Shown piece after piece: positions 12,250-21,643 of a stretch of DNA of 53,205 nucleotides; position 1 is the first letter of the stretch; the number at the start of each line of letters is the position of its first letter. The DNA lies in assembly GCA_003327435.1 (NCBI GenBank), contig QOQV01000015.1, positions 1-53,205 on the forward strand, written 5' to 3'. The notes under the pieces are model-generated. The model ran no database searches. It was not told the DNA's origin and saw only the letters and a list, made by a program, of their open reading frames with translations. The translations under genes were made by a program, and so were the position numbers. Source of the DNA: Ignavibacteriota bacterium (GTDB taxonomy: Bacteria; Bacteroidota; Ignavibacteria; UBA10030; BY39).

Positions 12250-14760
12250 ATGAAAGCCATTATAATGGCAGGAGGATTCGGTACGCGGCTCAGACCACTC
12301 ACTGCCAACATACCAAAACCTATGGTCCCGATGGTTAATAAACCAATGATGTATCATATTGTGGAACTATTGAAAGAACACAATATTAAGCAGATTGTGG
12401 CTTCTCTTTTTTATCATCCTGAAGTGATTTCTGAATATTTTCAGAATGGTGAAAAATTTGGTGTTTCAATGAATTATGTAAGAGCTGAAGCTGATTATGG
12501 AACCGCTGGGAGTGTTAAAAATGCAACCGTATCACTTGGATTAATAAATGATCAGATATTAATTATAAGTGGTGATGTACTAACAGATATAAATCTAACA
12601 AAGGCAATAGATTTTCACAATTTAAAAAAAGCCGATGCTACACTGGTCTTAACTCGTGTTAGCAATCCCTTACAATATGGGGTTGTAATAACAAATGATG
12701 AAGGAAGAATTACCAGATTCCTTGAAAAACCAACCTGGGGTGAAGTGTTTTCTGATACTATTAATACCGGTATATATATTCTCGAACCGAAAGTACTTGA
12801 ACTTGTACCATTCAGAGAAGAGTTTGATTTCAGTAAAGATTTGTTTCCTTTAATGTTGCGTAAAAATATGAATCTTTATGGTTACATCAGTGATGGTTAC
12901 TGGCGTGATATTGGAAGCTTGTATGATTATCAGGAAGCTCATCTGGATATTCTTTCACAAAATGTTGGTATTGAAGTGGAAGGTAAAAAGGAGAACAATT
13001 TAATTATTGGTGAAAACTCAGTTTTAAAAACAGAACCCGAAAATTTACACGGAATGAACATCATTGGTAAAAGAACAATTATAGAAGAAAATGTTAAACT
13101 CTCAAACACAGTAATTGGGAACAGTTGTGTAATCCATTCCGGTACTAATTTAAAAAATTGTGTAATCTGGGATGGTACTACAATTGGAAACCATTGTGAG
13201 CTTTCAGCAGATGTTGTGGGTTACAATTGTAAAATTGGAAATAATGTAATGATTGGTGATAATGTTTTTATAAGTGATAGATGTGTGATTGGCGATAATG
13301 CCCGTTTGTTTGCAAATATAAAGCTATGGCCAGAAAAAGTTATTGAGAATTCAGCTGTTTTAAACAGAAGTTTGGTACTGGAAGATCGGTGGTTAAAAGA
13401 GTTGTTTACAGATGCACGTGTAAGTGGTATCTCCAACATCGAAATGAACCCAGAGTTCGGCGCAAAGTTAGGCGCAGCATTTGGAGTTTTTATTGGTGAA
13501 GGTAAAACTGTTGTAACCAGTCGGGATTCGGATAATGTATCAAGAATGATGAACAGAGCATTAATCTGTGGATTAATCTCAGCTGGTGTAAATGTAAATG
13601 ATTTGCGCGCAATGCCAATCCCTCTGGTAAGACATGAATTAAGTACGGGTAATGAGGCTGGTGGTATTCATGTCAGAAAATCTCCATATAATAAAGCAAT
13701 GACTGATATAATATTTTTTGATTCAAATGGAAGAGATTTACCTGTTCGCAAGACCAAATCCATCGAAAGGATATTTTTTGGTGAAGATTATATGAGAGCA
13801 CCAGCCCATAAAGTCGGTGGAATATTTTTTACTGAAAGAACAACCGAAATATACAAACAGAAATTTTTATCAAGCTTGAAATTGGATGCTATAAAGAAAG
13901 CAAAATTTAAGATTGTTCTTGATTATTCAAACGGTGTTGCAGCAACAATCTTCCCCAACCTGCTTGGCTCTTTTGAATGTCAATCGGTTGCTTTAAATTC
14001 TCACCTGGATCCAAAAAAATTGACCCGTGAAGAGAAAGAAATAAAGGAATCGTTAAAACAAATTTCACATATCGTTACATCACTTCAATATGATATCGGT
14101 TGTATGATAGATGCTGGCTCTGAAAGAATAACAATTGTAGATGAGAAAGGTGAAATTTTAGATGGGGATCGGTTGCTTACACTTTTTGTAAAACTTTATC
14201 TGGATGTTTATCCAGGAACAAGAAGAATTGCTGTTCCGATAATTGCTCCATCTGAGATTGATGTAATTGCAAGCAAGTGTTCCATTATGAAAACAAAAAA
14301 CTCCCATCTCGCAATGATGGAAGCAGCTTCAGATAAGTCCGTATCATTTGTAGGTGGAACAAAAGGCGGTTTTATATTTACAGATTTCTTCTTTGCATCT
14401 GACGCAATGTATTCTCTTGCAAAATTATTGGAACTTTTAGCACTTTCTGGTAAAAAGTTGGGTGAACTGAATAAGGAGATAGTTCGCTATTATTCAGTTG
14501 AGCAGGATGTGCTCTGCCCATGGAATTTGAAGGGAAAAGTAATGCGATACATTAGTACAGAAACTGAAAATATGGATAGAGAGTTAGTAGATGGTGTTAA
14601 AATCAAATTTCACGGTGGTGATGATGCCGTTGCAGTTCAAATTATACCTGACAAAGAAAGACCGTTATTTCATATAAAAGCTGAAGCAAAATCGGAAACT
14701 ACAGCATTGCATCTCGCTGAAAAGTATTCAAAATTAATTGAAAAATGGCGAGATGAATAA
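12250..14760 (+). CDS. Sugar-phosphate nucleotidyltransferase fused to a divergent phosphomannomutase domain
   Basis: An 836-residue fusion. Residues 1-235 are a nucleotidyltransferase (MAGGFGTRLRPLTANIPKPM, with GDVLTDIN and the WRDIG end motif), likely making GDP-mannose or a related NDP-sugar. About 250-380 are left-handed beta-helix hexapeptide repeats. About 385-836 follow the phosphohexomutase fold, but its active-site loops are lost: the TASHNP serine loop reads GGIHVRKSP (472-479), the metal loop DGDGDR reads DAGSER (621-626), the sugar loop GEMSGH reads GGTKGG (702-707), and the SGTEP phosphate loop is absent near 804-812. The mutase half is therefore probably inactive or altered and may be regulatory. 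Fusions of this kind are annotated as mannose-1-phosphate guanylyltransferase in several phyla; the substrate is not certain. Confidence 0.9.
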   Translation: MKAIIMAGGFGTRLRPLTANIPKPMVPMVNKPMMYHIVELLKEHNIKQIVASLFYHPEVISEYFQNGEKFGVSMNYVRAEADYGTAGSVKNATVSLGLINDQILIISGDVLTDINLTKAIDFHNLKKADATLVLTRVSNPLQYGVVITNDEGRITRFLEKPTWGEVFSDTINTGIYILEPKVLELVPFREEFDFSKDLFPLMLRKNMNLYGYISDGYWRDIGSLYDYQEAHLDILSQNVGIEVEGKKENNLIIGENSVLKTEPENLHGMNIIGKRTIIEENVKLSNTVIGNSCVIHSGTNLKNCVIWDGTTIGNHCELSADVVGYNCKIGNNVMIGDNVFISDRCVIGDNARLFANIKLWPEKVIENSAVLNRSLVLEDRWLKELFTDARVSGISNIEMNPEFGAKLGAAFGVFIGEGKTVVTSRDSDNVSRMMNRALICGLISAGVNVNDLRAMPIPLVRHELSTGNEAGGIHVRKSPYNKAMTDIIFFDSNGRDLPVRKTKSIERIFFGEDYMRAPAHKVGGIFFTERTTEIYKQKFLSSLKLDAIKKAKFKIVLDYSNGVAATIFPNLLGSFECQSVALNSHLDPKKLTREEKEIKESLKQISHIVTSLQYDIGCMIDAGSERITIVDEKGEILDGDRLLTLFVKLYLDVYPGTRRIAVPIIAPSEIDVIASKCSIMKTKNSHLAMMEAASDKSVSFVGGTKGGFIFTDFFFASDAMYSLAKLLELLALSGKKLGELNKEIVRYYSVEQDVLCPWNLKGKVMRYISTETENMDRELVDGVKIKFHGGDDAVAVQIIPDKERPLFHIKAEAKSETTALHLAEKYSKLIEKWRDE

Positions 14761-17751: not shown

Positions 17752-18481
17752 TTTGGTTTATGGGAGAATACCTGTCTTAGAAGCGCTTCGTTCAGATATC
17801 GAAATTGAAAAAATATTTGTTTTGTTCGGAACACATGGTCAAAATATATCGGAAATTCATAAACTTGCTAAACAAAAAAGAATCAAGGTTGTACAACTAG
17901 ACCGTAAAAAGTTTAATGAAGTTTGTGATATAGAGAAAAGTCAGGGAGTTGTAGCAGTAATTACACCAATAAAATTCAGAGAAGTGAGTGACATATTCAA
18001 AATTGCTGAAGAGAAAAAAGAAAAAAATTTTATTTTAATTTTAGATGAGATACAGGATCCACAGAATTTGGGTGCGTTAATAAGAACTGCTGATTGTGCT
18101 GGTGTACATGGGATTATCATTCCGAAACACAATGCAGCATCAGTAACTTCAACTGTTATTAAAGCTTCTGCTGGTGCAGCTGAGAATTTTCCTATTGCAA
18201 AAGTTGGTAATATTTCACAAACTATCGAGGAGTTAAAACAAAAAGGCATCTGGATAGTCGGCACTGATTCCGATGCAGATAAATTGTATAATGAAATTAA
18301 TTATGATTTTTCGGTTGCTTTAGTTATTGGCTCAGAAGGGAAGGGAATTCGCAGACTTGTAAAAGAGAAGTGTGATTTTTTGGTAAAAATTCCACTTTTT
18401 GGGAGAGTGGATTCATTAAATGCTTCGGTTGCAGCCGGTATTGTACTATATGAGATTAAAAATCAGCGTATGAAAATTTAG
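17729..18481 (+). CDS. rlmB: 23S rRNA 2'-O-methyltransferase RlmB-like (TrmH/SpoU family)
   Basis: A 250-residue SPOUT methyltransferase. It has an N-terminal substrate-binding domain (VYGRIPVLEALRSDIEIEKIFV) and a C-terminal knotted domain with motif 1 (LDEIQDPQNLGALIRTADCAG), motif 2 (VIGSEGKGIRRLVKEKCD) and motif 3 (LNASVAAGIVLYEI) that bind S-adenosylmethionine. The start ATG 17729 was preferred over an upstream TTG at 17693 because the product then begins at the family N-terminus. The family methylates G2251 of 23S rRNA; other SpoU targets cannot be excluded. Its end overlaps the convergent iron-sulfur gene by four bases. Confidence 0.9.
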   Translation: MQKNNINNLVYGRIPVLEALRSDIEIEKIFVLFGTHGQNISEIHKLAKQKRIKVVQLDRKKFNEVCDIEKSQGVVAVITPIKFREVSDIFKIAEEKKEKNFILILDEIQDPQNLGALIRTADCAGVHGIIIPKHNAASVTSTVIKASAGAAENFPIAKVGNISQTIEELKQKGIWIVGTDSDADKLYNEINYDFSVALVIGSEGKGIRRLVKEKCDFLVKIPLFGRVDSLNASVAAGIVLYEIKNQRMKI

Positions 18482-20034
18482 AATGGGAATTCCTCAGGTA
18501 TTTCAATCTTTTCTTGTTTTTTTATTTCCGGCTTTTTTGATTTCTGATGAATTTGATTTGGAATGATATAAATGGCTTTTCGTGGTGTTGTCGGACAGGC
18601 ATGTTCACAAGCCCCGCATCCAACACACAGGTCGTTGTTTAATTCCGGAATTTTTAATTTACCTTTATAAGGAATCATATAAACTGCTTTTGTTGGACAA
18701 TGTTCTGAACAAGCTGCGCATTCTTTTTCTTTAGCAACCACAACACAGTCATCTTTGTAAAATTCTGCTCTTCCAATTTGTATTAACTTTTTGCTTTCTA
18801 CACTCTGAGGTAATATTGCACCGGTTGGACATATATGAGTGCATATCGTGCAATCATAATTGCAGTAACTTGCAGTATAGTTCATGCTTGGCTGGAATAA
18901 TCCGCTTATACCGTATTCAAAAAATGTCGGATAAAGTACCTGAGTCGGACAGGCACTTACACAAAGATGACATGCTGTACATAGGTTTGAAAAGTGAGTA
19001 ATACTTTGAGAACCTGGAGGTGAAATTGGCTGCTTTTTGACTCTAAAGTAATTACTTTTTTCTAGCTGATTTTTTTCTCCTTGATTGTTTTCGATAAGAA
19101 AAACACCGATTGCTGGTAAAATTGCTCTTTTTAGGAAGTTCCTCCGTGATGGTTCTGATAAATTAACTTGAATGTTTATATATTTTGGTCTGTTATAGAC
19201 TACTCCATCGGTTGGACAAACCTTTATACAGTTAAAACAAGCAATACAGGCAGCATAATTGATATTTTTTGTTTCGCTTTCAATACAATTTGCTTTGCAC
19301 ACCTTTTCGCAAGCACCACATTCTGTGCAATTATTTTCATCAATTACAATTTTAAAGATTGAAATTCTTGAAATTATACCAAGAATAGCTCCAGCGGGGC
19401 AAAATGAATTGCAAAATAGCCTCCCATGAAAATACGACATATAAAATATCAAAAATAAAAATGAAAAACTGATAAGTACTACAAATATATCTGTATTTCT
19501 TATAGGTATGTTAAAAAGATAATAAATCGACATGCTTTCTAATACTGATGAAGTGAAATTGTTTATTAAGATAAAACCTGGCTCTATAATATTTACAACA
19601 AATCTTGAATAAATACTATAAGGTTCGAAAATATTTAAAATACTTACAAAGCCTAAAAGTGCAAGTATAAATAAAGAAAATGTAAAAGTATAGTGAAAAA
19701 TATAATTCGGTTTTTGATATAAGAATTTTTTCCTTTTGTTAATTTTCCTTCTAATATAAATTATTATGTCTTGAAATGTTCCGAGTGGACAGATGCTCGA
19801 ACAATATACTCTTCCGAAAAACACGCTGATAAGCAGAACAAATATCAAACCCAGAGATGATAATCCAATGTAGAATAAAATTTTAAGTATTGAAGGGACT
19901 AATTGTAAGGAAGTAAAAAAAATTATTATATCCTGTGGAATGTTTTTTTGTGGATTTATCAGTAAGGAAGTGATTATAATGAAAAAAAACAATGATACAG
20001 CTACACGTATCTTTTTTAAGTATTTAAGCTTCAA
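18478..20034 (-). CDS. Membrane polyferredoxin: apparent NapH-NapG-like fusion
   Basis: A 518-residue iron-sulfur membrane protein. The first part has about five membrane helices with the NapH/NosR-type motifs CSSICPLG (C78, C82) and CNSFCPAG (C208, C212), then a two-cluster ferredoxin (CTECGACEKVC from C236, and CIACFNCIKVCP). Next comes an internal twin-arginine segment, SRRNFLKRAILPAIGVFLIE (R297/R298). The C-terminal part holds CTACHLCVSACP, CNYDCTICTHICP, CAACSEHCP and CVGCGACEHACP motifs, i.e. several more 4Fe-4S sites. This looks like a NapH-type quinol-side membrane protein joined to a NapG-like exported ferredoxin. Six bases separate it from the DUF362 gene. Electron donor and acceptor are unknown. 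Confidence 0.88.
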   Translation of the reverse strand: MKLKYLKKIRVAVSLFFFIIITSLLINPQKNIPQDIIIFFTSLQLVPSILKILFYIGLSSLGLIFVLLISVFFGRVYCSSICPLGTFQDIIIYIRRKINKRKKFLYQKPNYIFHYTFTFSLFILALLGFVSILNIFEPYSIYSRFVVNIIEPGFILINNFTSSVLESMSIYYLFNIPIRNTDIFVVLISFSFLFLIFYMSYFHGRLFCNSFCPAGAILGIISRISIFKIVIDENNCTECGACEKVCKANCIESETKNINYAACIACFNCIKVCPTDGVVYNRPKYINIQVNLSEPSRRNFLKRAILPAIGVFLIENNQGEKNQLEKSNYFRVKKQPISPPGSQSITHFSNLCTACHLCVSACPTQVLYPTFFEYGISGLFQPSMNYTASYCNYDCTICTHICPTGAILPQSVESKKLIQIGRAEFYKDDCVVVAKEKECAACSEHCPTKAVYMIPYKGKLKIPELNNDLCVGCGACEHACPTTPRKAIYIIPNQIHQKSKKPEIKKQEKIEIPEEFPF

Positions 20035-20040
20035 CTTTTA

Positions 20041-20952
20041 CTAAACCGTAATTCGTTTAATATTCAGGTTTTCGATATCTTTCCTCCCAATCTTCATTTC
20101 AGTAGCAATGTTAAGATATCTGATATCTTCTGGTTTTAAGCCAAACAATTTTGCAGCAGCTGAATCCACAGCAACTATATCGGTAGAGAGTAGCTGGCTT
20201 TTCATCAACACAACATCATCTGTTGAAACACCACGCGGTCCGTTTGTTTTCATAACCAAATATGCATCTACTATGTTTAAAGTAGGTTTTCTGTATGTGG
20301 CAAAATCAGCAATGCATTGATGCAAATCATTTCTGTGCCAGTATCTTCTATCCCAAACATTGCCCATAAGGTTTTTCATTGCAATTGTTAATGTAGCACC
20401 ACCATGATTTTTAAGTACAGGAACATTTATAAAAACATCCGATGAGAGTATAACTTCATGTTCTTTCGTGTTTTTGAGAACTTTACCCTGAGGAATGCTA
20501 ACTTCCTGATAATAGCTTTCGCTATTGGCTGGGACAACTTTAGCTTTTGCATCTTTTGCAGCTTTTTCTATACCACTGTTTTTATAACACCTCTGCCATT
20601 CATCGCAGGTATGATCAACCACATAAACTTCTCTTGCGCCAGCATTATAACAATGTTCAACTATTCGACCGACTAATTTTGGGTTTGTGTTTGCGGCACG
20701 TTCAGGAGCTGTGTCCCAACCAATGTTTGGTTTAACAACAACTTTTTGTCCCTTTTTTACAAATTTTTTCATACCCCCGAGGGCTTCTATTGCCTTGTCG
20801 AACATAACATCCGGTTCACCACCTTTGACTGCAACCAAATCGTAATCTGTATTTTGTGAAAATAATAAACTATCAAAATTCCCGAGTACCATTCCAGCAC
20901 CGACAAGTGCGGAAGCTTTATATGCCGATTTTAAAAAATCTCTTCTTTTCAT
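20041..20952 (-). CDS. Tat-exported DUF362 protein
   Basis: A 303-residue protein with a twin-arginine signal (MKRRDFLKSAYKASALVGAGMV) and a DUF362 domain (VVVKPNIGWDTAPERAANTNP, FINVPVLKNHGGATLTIAMKNLMG). The family has no settled biochemical activity. The ATG at 20952 is chosen because it puts the Tat motif at the N-terminus and has AAAAAGG upstream; a TTG at 20991 would only add a poor lysine/asparagine-rich lead. It lacks the ferredoxin domain found in some DUF362 proteins, which the downstream partner may supply. The two are presumably one operon, transcribed from the gap 20953-21196. Confidence 0.88.
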   Translation of the reverse strand: MKRRDFLKSAYKASALVGAGMVLGNFDSLLFSQNTDYDLVAVKGGEPDVMFDKAIEALGGMKKFVKKGQKVVVKPNIGWDTAPERAANTNPKLVGRIVEHCYNAGAREVYVVDHTCDEWQRCYKNSGIEKAAKDAKAKVVPANSESYYQEVSIPQGKVLKNTKEHEVILSSDVFINVPVLKNHGGATLTIAMKNLMGNVWDRRYWHRNDLHQCIADFATYRKPTLNIVDAYLVMKTNGPRGVSTDDVVLMKSQLLSTDIVAVDSAAAKLFGLKPEDIRYLNIATEMKIGRKDIENLNIKRITV

Positions 20953-21013
20953 TTTGAGACCTTTTTTATTCAAATTTAGGTTAATTTTCAAAAAAAATCA
21001 AGGTATTAAAAAA

Positions 21014-21028
21014 TATCATTAAATGATA
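21014..21028. promoter_or_regulatory. 7-bp-arm palindrome upstream of the DUF362/iron-sulfur operon
   Basis: TATCATT, one central A, then AATGATA: a perfect inverted repeat in the gap between divergent DUF362 and msrB. The outer bases GGTAT (21002-21006) and ATACC (21026-21030) offer a second pairing. The size and symmetry suit a dimeric repressor or redox regulator, but no regulator is identified. Confidence 0.4.
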
Positions 21029-21083
21029 CCCGAATTATTCGTTGAAGTATTATATTTAATTCGAAAATATTAGATACTATTAT

Positions 21084-21114
21084 TGTGGTGTTGGTGTAAG
21101 GGAGGAACACCACA
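21084..21114. other. 9-bp-stem hairpin in the msrB leader
   Basis: TGTGGTGTT (21084-21092) pairs perfectly with AACACCACA (21106-21114) around a 13-base purine-rich loop that includes GGGAGG. No T-run follows on either side, so it is not a standard intrinsic terminator. It lies 82 bp before the msrB start and could be a leader structure or operator. Confidence 0.5.
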
Positions 21115-21196: not shown

Positions 21197-21643
21197 ATGA
21201 ATCATCTAAAAACTAACACAATAATACTTTTAATATTATTTGCTTTCATCAATTCACATTCACAGGAAAATAGCAAGATGAAACTTAAAAAATTAACTCC
21301 TGAAGAGGAAAGAGTAATTATACATAAAGGTACTGAGTATCCATTCACAGGTAAGTATGTTCATCACAAGGAAAAGGGTACATACATATGCAAACGTTGT
21401 GAGAGTCCACTTTATCGTTCTGAAGATAAGTTCGATTCACATTGTGGTTGGCCAAGTTTTGATGATGAAATTCCAGGTGCTGTTAGAAGAATTCCGGATG
21501 CAGATGGGATTCGTACTGAAATTGTTTGCGCGAACTGTGGCGCTCACCTTGGTCATGTTTTCGAAGGTGAGGGCTTTACCGAGAAAAACATTCGCCATTG
21601 TGTAAACTCAATTTCACTCGAATTTATACCTGCAAAAAAATAA
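21197..21643 (+). CDS. msrB: Peptide-methionine (R)-S-oxide reductase, exported
   Basis: A 148-residue MsrB with an N-terminal signal peptide ([16 protein letters not shown]), so it acts outside the cytoplasm. The zinc-binding CxxC pairs are CKRC and CANC; the family motifs [16 protein letters not shown] and [12 protein letters not shown] lead to the catalytic cysteine in [11 protein letters not shown]. It reduces the R-form of methionine sulfoxide in oxidised envelope proteins. No MsrA domain is fused. It is divergent from the exported iron-sulfur/DUF362 pair, and electrons must be supplied across the membrane by an unseen thioredoxin-like system. Confidence 0.95.

Follow-up and report, generated by a model that had tools for sequence, protein, structure and literature searches.

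A NapH-NapG fusion polyferredoxin paired with a putatively Tat-exported DUF362 protein in an Ignavibacteriota bacterium

Introduction

Polytopic polyferredoxins are described by Tooke et al. 2017 (PMC5449189) as NapH-NapG fusions in which a twin-arginine motif precedes a fifth transmembrane segment, with three clusters inside and four outside. In that paper, export of such a homologous fusion through the twin-arginine translocation (Tat) pathway was shown with reporters, and the handover from the general secretory (Sec) pathway to Tat is attributed to the low hydrophobicity of the fifth helix, followed by positive charges. Here we analyse a stretch of 53,205 nucleotides from an Ignavibacteriota bacterium (contig QOQV01000015.1 of assembly GCA_003327435.1, hereafter the window), in which a gene for a fusion of this type follows a gene for a DUF362 protein. 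The published example from MLMS-1 (Q1NSB0; PMC5449189) has the same fusion, cytoplasmic clusters, a twin arginine directly before a weak fifth helix and four outer clusters; the paper is about assembly, and its passages seen here name no DUF362 partner.

Three further systems invite comparison. The halves of the window's fusion match the models of NapH and NapG, the quinol dehydrogenase of nitrate respiration, and one related locus carries a split version; the window's protein differs in scoring far below the equivalog cut-offs, in being one polypeptide and in having a DUF362 partner. The LarA superfamily (DUF2088) shares clan CL0471 with DUF362, and the two have the same cofactor-domain fold and D-x10-H-x9-K register in common, whereas the window's DUF362 protein lacks the C-terminal LarA domain, probably has a loop containing Cys where LarA has its first catalytic His, is apparently exported and is paired with a polyferredoxin. 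In MsrP/MsrQ (YedY/YedZ), likewise, a Tat-exported enzyme is served by a respiratory-chain-linked membrane donor, and relatives also occur fused, as PMC5449189 reports; that system uses heme and molybdenum rather than iron-sulphur clusters and DUF362, and no family in common was found in the scans. We conclude, with a probability of about 0.7, that the DUF362 protein and the fusion form a two-gene exported redox unit in which the fusion serves as a membrane iron-sulphur wire.

Results and Discussion

Conservation of the gene pair

The two genes lie on the minus strand with the fusion gene downstream, separated by 6 bases (Table 1). The start of the DUF362 protein is likely the ATG giving MKRRDFLK, chosen for the conserved MxRRxF start, and in a relative of the same genus the fusion starts at the identical position, with GTG instead of TTG. 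The preliminary description of this DNA had proposed that the pair functions as a unit, and our neighbourhood survey, which finds strict pairing, bears this out. The fusion and a close DUF362 are both present in 27 of 60 genomes sampled from the order (including the window's own) and both absent from the other 33. Each of the 27 has the DUF362 gene immediately upstream of the fusion gene and on the same strand; two of these genomes keep the pairing at a fusion identity of only 25-26%. In the phylum sample of 395 genomes, 40 hold the DUF362 and every one of the 40 also holds the fusion, which occurs alone in 2 more. Loci fetched with DUF362 at their centre have the fusion directly downstream in 30 of 30 cases, and among named genomes pairing is seen at 52 of the 76 loci whose upstream DNA is long enough. 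Among the paired records are ones assigned to Ignavibacteriota, Bacteroidota, Thermodesulfobacteriota, Lentisphaerota and Verrucomicrobiota; many come from metagenome bins, and such assignments may be wrong. Neighbour clustering found no third gene kept across paired loci, apart from the subset with larB, larE and larC discussed below. The literature searched yielded no paper on DUF362 with a NapG/NapH partner, and as far as it shows, the strict conservation of the pair is new.

Architecture and topology of the fusion

The identification of the protein as a NapH-NapG fusion stands, with the NCBIfam model for NapH covering the first half and that for NapG covering residues 292-497. A Pfam scan gives Fer4-type families. 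The CX3CP motifs of the membrane part are CSSICP (residues 78-83) and CNSFCP (208-213), and the cysteines of the cytoplasmic-type ferredoxin are at 236/239/242/246 and 263/266/269/273. The “at least four more cysteine clusters” of the preliminary description correspond to four further four-cysteine sets behind SRRNFLK (352/355/358/362, 391/395/398/402, 430/439/442/446 and 470/473/476/480). All 28 motif cysteines, 16 of them in the NapG-like domain, are invariant among 62 homologues. The protein thus shows the features of a polytopic polyferredoxin, namely a NapH part with four helices and two CX3CP motifs, a two-cluster ferredoxin, a twin arginine before a weak fifth helix, and four 4Fe-4S motifs after it. 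An AlphaFold2 model has a mean predicted local distance difference test score (pLDDT) of 88.5, with low confidence in the junction linker (residues 287-324) and the C-terminal tail, and in a comparison of the fold with the PDB only ferredoxin domains were matched, at Z of at most 6.3, an uninformative result.

The motif SRRNFLK spans residues 296-302, with the twin arginine at 297-298, and the junction carries a twin-basic pair in 62 of 62 homologues (RR in 46, KR in 15 and RK in 1). Kyte-Doolittle (KD15) maxima reach 2.5-2.8 for helices 1-4, against a median of 1.73 for the segment behind the RR. Lysine and arginine are numerous in the predicted inner loops across the family and scarce in the outer ones, and several of both follow the weak fifth segment in the window's protein; this positive-inside pattern and the low hydrophobicity of the fifth helix agree with the dual Sec/Tat design as published. 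At one locus (our label L144, in genome G122) the fusion is split at the junction into a NapH and a separate NapG whose N-terminus carries a Tat-type signal of its own. TatC is encoded in the window's genome. From these features of the sequence the C-terminal half is probably exported via Tat at the internal RR junction, and its clusters are predicted to face the outside, matching the published reporter fusions on a homologue (PMC5449189). The internal junction suggested earlier for this protein is supported by the motif in all 62 homologues and by the weak fifth helix; such a junction in fusions of this kind is not new, having been described in 2017 (PMC5449189). In addition, tatC lies beside or near the fusion gene in four Bacteroidales loci (L148:4454-5227, L093, L101 and L076).

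According to one alternative the twin arginine is a chance occurrence, with the C-terminal clusters left in the cytoplasm, which would agree with the shortness and weakness of the hydrophobic stretch and with the low confidence of the linker in the model. We consider this very improbable: a basic pair kept in all 62 homologues argues against chance, the natural split yields an N-terminal Tat signal, the partners have Tat signals, and PMC5449189 reports Tat-dependent reporter export for a homologous fusion.

Signal and fold of the DUF362 protein

DUF362 is a widespread family for which we know of no function. The window's member scores 180 bits with the Pfam model (PF04015), whose cut-off is 24. 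Its assignment as a partner with a Tat signal is upheld by the MKRRDFLK start and by the near-invariance of the twin arginine (R3 in 58/58 homologues and R4 in 57/58). The AlphaFold2 model has a pLDDT of 91.6, with values mostly above 90 outside the signal peptide, and superposes on lactate racemase 9eid with Z 18.8 and a root-mean-square deviation of 2.7 Å over 207 residues (VIA). LarA structures alone match the model at Z above 15, the first unrelated fold following at 5.9. The aligned LarA residues are 33-268 only, that is the nickel-pincer nucleotide (NPN) domain, with no counterpart of the substrate domain. To the extent of the literature searched, the LarA-like fold predicted for an exported DUF362 protein is new.

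DUF362 and the LarA family belong to the same Pfam clan (PMC11770544). In LarA, Lys184 tethers the cofactor, His200 binds nickel and Arg75 binds the phosphate, with His108 and His174 serving as acid/bases (PMC11770544, PMC12611868). Both H183 and K193 of the DUF362 protein are invariant in 58 of 58 homologues, the D-x10-H-x9-K spacing is common to DUF362 and LarA with the aspartate 11 residues before the histidine in each, and a further histidine stands 13-14 residues after K193 in nearly all DUF362 sequences, compared with 16 in LarA. From the sequence, K74-P75 may stand in place of LarA Arg75 and C116 in place of His108. The alignment of DUF362 and LarA profiles by hhalign is not significant overall, with a low-stringency path giving a gapless D-H-K register; a Pfam scan of the DUF362 protein found no Lar family, Lar_N included, and a sequence search of the PDB gave no match. 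In another genome (G014), two tandem DUF362 genes (L197:652-2606) have the same H-x9-K and are about 34-35% identical to the window's.

Exchange of the exported partner

Fusions of the gut-type Bacteroidales, with 32-36% identity, occur without DUF362. At 23 of the unpaired loci neighbour clustering places an aldo/keto reductase gene nearby, directly adjoining the fusion gene in the loci examined. The examples scanned have a 4Fe-4S domain (Fer4_9) and an RR signal at their start, in one case (L097) a Tat signal with a lipobox (a lipoprotein-type cysteine after the RR signal), and by sequence this partner, too, looks exported. The fusions of this type included in the phylogenetic tree form one clade (support 100/100) nested inside the DUF362-paired fusions. 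The simplest reading of the fusion is that of a general outward electron conduit with a replaceable end enzyme. Within the literature searched, the swap is new.

The redox unit and a maturation alternative

In the model that we favour, Sec would insert the fusion by way of its four helices, so that the CX3CP motifs and the two-cluster ferredoxin would face the cytoplasm, and Tat would complete it at the internal junction, leaving the NapG-type four-cluster domain outside. The fusion would carry electrons across from the membrane (from menaquinol, by analogy with NapGH), and the DUF362 protein would fold in the cytoplasm, probably with a cofactor, leave through Tat and work outside as the wire's dedicated redox enzyme, a position that the exported iron-sulphur aldo/keto reductase would have taken over in one descendant clade. 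We infer quinol as the donor, the direction of electron flow and the cofactor bound in DUF362. Several points weigh against this model. In one genome (G212) the two genes are on different contigs, so that adjacency is not absolute. The DUF362 protein has no recognised redox cofactor, and C101 and C116 are its only invariant or nearly invariant cysteines. Both halves of the fusion score below the NCBIfam equivalog cut-offs (100 of 213 bits for NapH/MauN and 65 of 269 bits for NapG/MauM). Finally, electrons could instead flow from an exported donor to quinone.

The same model families, each of which unites a Nap with a Mau protein (NapG with MauM and NapH with MauN), give some room to a different role, in which the fusion would serve the maturation or repair of its exported partner, as has been proposed for MauM/MauN, with electrons used once, for building or resetting the partner's cofactor. 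That the partner can be replaced by an unrelated enzyme is also in keeping with such a role. The aldo/keto reductase, however, has an iron-sulphur domain of its own, as expected for continuing electron transfer, and no maturation target other than the partner was found linked. We regard a maturation function as improbable in comparison with the two-gene redox unit.

The question of a nickel-pincer cofactor

A sharper form of the two-gene redox unit, compatible with it, would make the exported DUF362 protein an NPN enzyme in which K193 tethers the nucleotide, H206 ligates nickel and H183 is the acid/base. The fusion would then feed or drain electrons at the pincer, and DUF362 would be a client of LarB, LarE and LarC other than LarA. 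We put this forward as a tentative, rather doubtful proposal. It draws on the predicted fold, which has no match but LarA above Z 15, and on the shared register with its downstream histidine. It also draws on gene neighbourhoods: genes for LarB, LarE and LarC are directly beside the pair at three loci (L049, L056 and L075, divergently oriented) and in one run behind it at L144, in a genome with no Lar_N match, and a LarC gene is downstream at L083. LarC is moreover enriched in genomes with the pair (13/40, against 10/355 without it; kinship uncorrected). Three independent lar arrangements in 52 loci would have a P of about 2e-5, a rough estimate assuming 0.001 per locus, with L144 outside the unselected locus set behind this figure. 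Against the proposal, L049, L056 and L075 belong to one clade, the window's own genome encodes a LarA-like protein that is another possible NPN client, the family-level hhalign comparison is not significant, and the candidate nickel-ligand histidine is offset by about three residues from that of LarA. The LarA-like gene in question (L190, contig C23) encodes 422 aa and directly follows an apparent gene for a PdxB-type 2-hydroxyacid dehydrogenase.

NPN as the general cofactor of these proteins, an idea proposed after L144, was rejected on the surveys for LarC, LarE and Lar_N: 29 of the 58 genomes with the pair have neither LarC nor LarE, yet their DUF362 proteins keep the same invariant residues, and the canonical cofactor is therefore not general unless it is made in another way there. 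Two of these 29 genomes (G092 and G176, the latter a single contig) encode LarA-like proteins (L201 and L202) with the full His-Lys-His set, and neither LarC nor LarE was found in them; missing genes may therefore not exclude a related cofactor. The widest formulation is that DUF362 would be a second class of nickel-pincer (or closely related pyridine-nucleotide-derived) enzyme, without a LarA-type substrate domain. It would receive its cofactor in the cytoplasm, leave the cell's interior through Tat and be fed with electrons through wiring to the quinone pool, as a client of larB/E/C in genomes without larA. This we rate as unlikely.

Other features of the locus

The genes that flank the pair, none of them evidently linked to it, are encoded on the opposite strand: lgt and an rRNA methyltransferase gene at one end, msrB and a gene for an RNase H-like protein at the other. 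The msrB gene (SelR domain, window 21197-21643), divergent from the DUF362 gene, probably encodes an exported methionine sulfoxide reductase with a Sec-type signal, and adjoins the pair in the same genus only. Elsewhere in the window (12250-14760), an 836-aa protein combines a sugar-nucleotidyltransferase having hexapeptide repeats with a phosphoglucomutase-type domain.

Table 1. Features of the DUF362-fusion locus, in window coordinates
Feature	Position	Strand	Remarks
NapH-NapG fusion polyferredoxin (polytopic polyferredoxin, PFD)	18478..20034	minus	518 aa, TTG start
NapG-like domain, predicted outside the membrane	18535..19017	minus	residues 340-500, four 4Fe-4S motifs; napG 65 bits
Internal twin-arginine junction	19090..19155	minus	residues 294-315, weakly hydrophobic stretch after
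Cytoplasmic-type ferredoxin	19189..19359	minus	residues 226-282, two 4Fe-4S motifs, eight invariant Cys
NapH-like membrane part	19360..20034	minus	residues 1-225: four transmembrane helices, two CX3CP; hydropathy, positive-inside counts, napH 100 bits
DUF362 gene, first of pair	20041..20952	minus	303 aa, ATG at 20952; longer TTG reading from 20991
DUF362 domain, predicted fold of LarA cofactor (N-terminal) domain	20149..20742	minus	Pfam, AlphaFold2, VIA Z 18.8
H183-x9-K193 motif	20374..20406	minus	register of LarA catalytic His and nickel-pincer-tethering Lys
Tat-type signal peptide MKRRDFLKSAYKASALVGAGMVLGNFDSLLFSQ	20854..20952	minus	conserved twin Arg; low pLDDT
Palindrome TATCATTAAATGATA	21014..21028	.	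arms 7+7, upstream of DUF362, function uncertain

The palindrome with 7-bp arms reported upstream of the DUF362 gene is real, its 15 bases (TATCATTAAATGATA) lying 62-76 bases before the start codon. The genome holds exactly two exact copies, one besides this site, and when two mismatches are allowed, a test for regulon sites gives 65 matches against 29 for the control. Among the relatives examined, only a genome of the same genus keeps it, with one mismatch in the arms. A role as a dedicated control element is not supported beyond the genus. A hairpin-forming block at 21084-21114 (TGTGGTGTT...AACACCACA), between the DUF362 gene and msrB, is near-identical in the same-genus genome and better kept than the palindrome, the surrounding intergenic DNA being more diverged. 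Rfam matches a single tRNA in the window; it gives no regulatory RNA there and nothing at 21084-21114.

Of the preliminary description as a whole, then, the identity of the fusion, its Tat junction, the partner with a Tat signal and the unit hold, its electron path from quinol to DUF362 stays a proposal, and control by the palindrome is not supported beyond the genus. Neither of the two outcomes that it named as refuting was obtained: related genomes conserve the pair, and the evidence from sequence places the C-terminal clusters outside. The LarA-like fold of DUF362, the exchange for an aldo/keto reductase and the larB/E/C neighbourhood had been overlooked.

Significance

A strictly conserved exported electron donor implies that this subgroup of DUF362 probably consists of redox enzymes acting beyond the cytoplasmic membrane. 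The predicted resemblance to the LarA fold, together with the register of the tethering lysine, suggests which cofactor to seek in them. About 15% of the genomes analysed in a study of 2024 have larB, larE and larC and lack larA (PMC11796402), so that further nickel-pincer proteins are to be expected, for which the pair of DUF362 and fusion would be a concrete candidate. The exchange of the partner suggests that dual Sec/Tat polyferredoxins may be general outward electron conduits, those of the gut Bacteroidales included.

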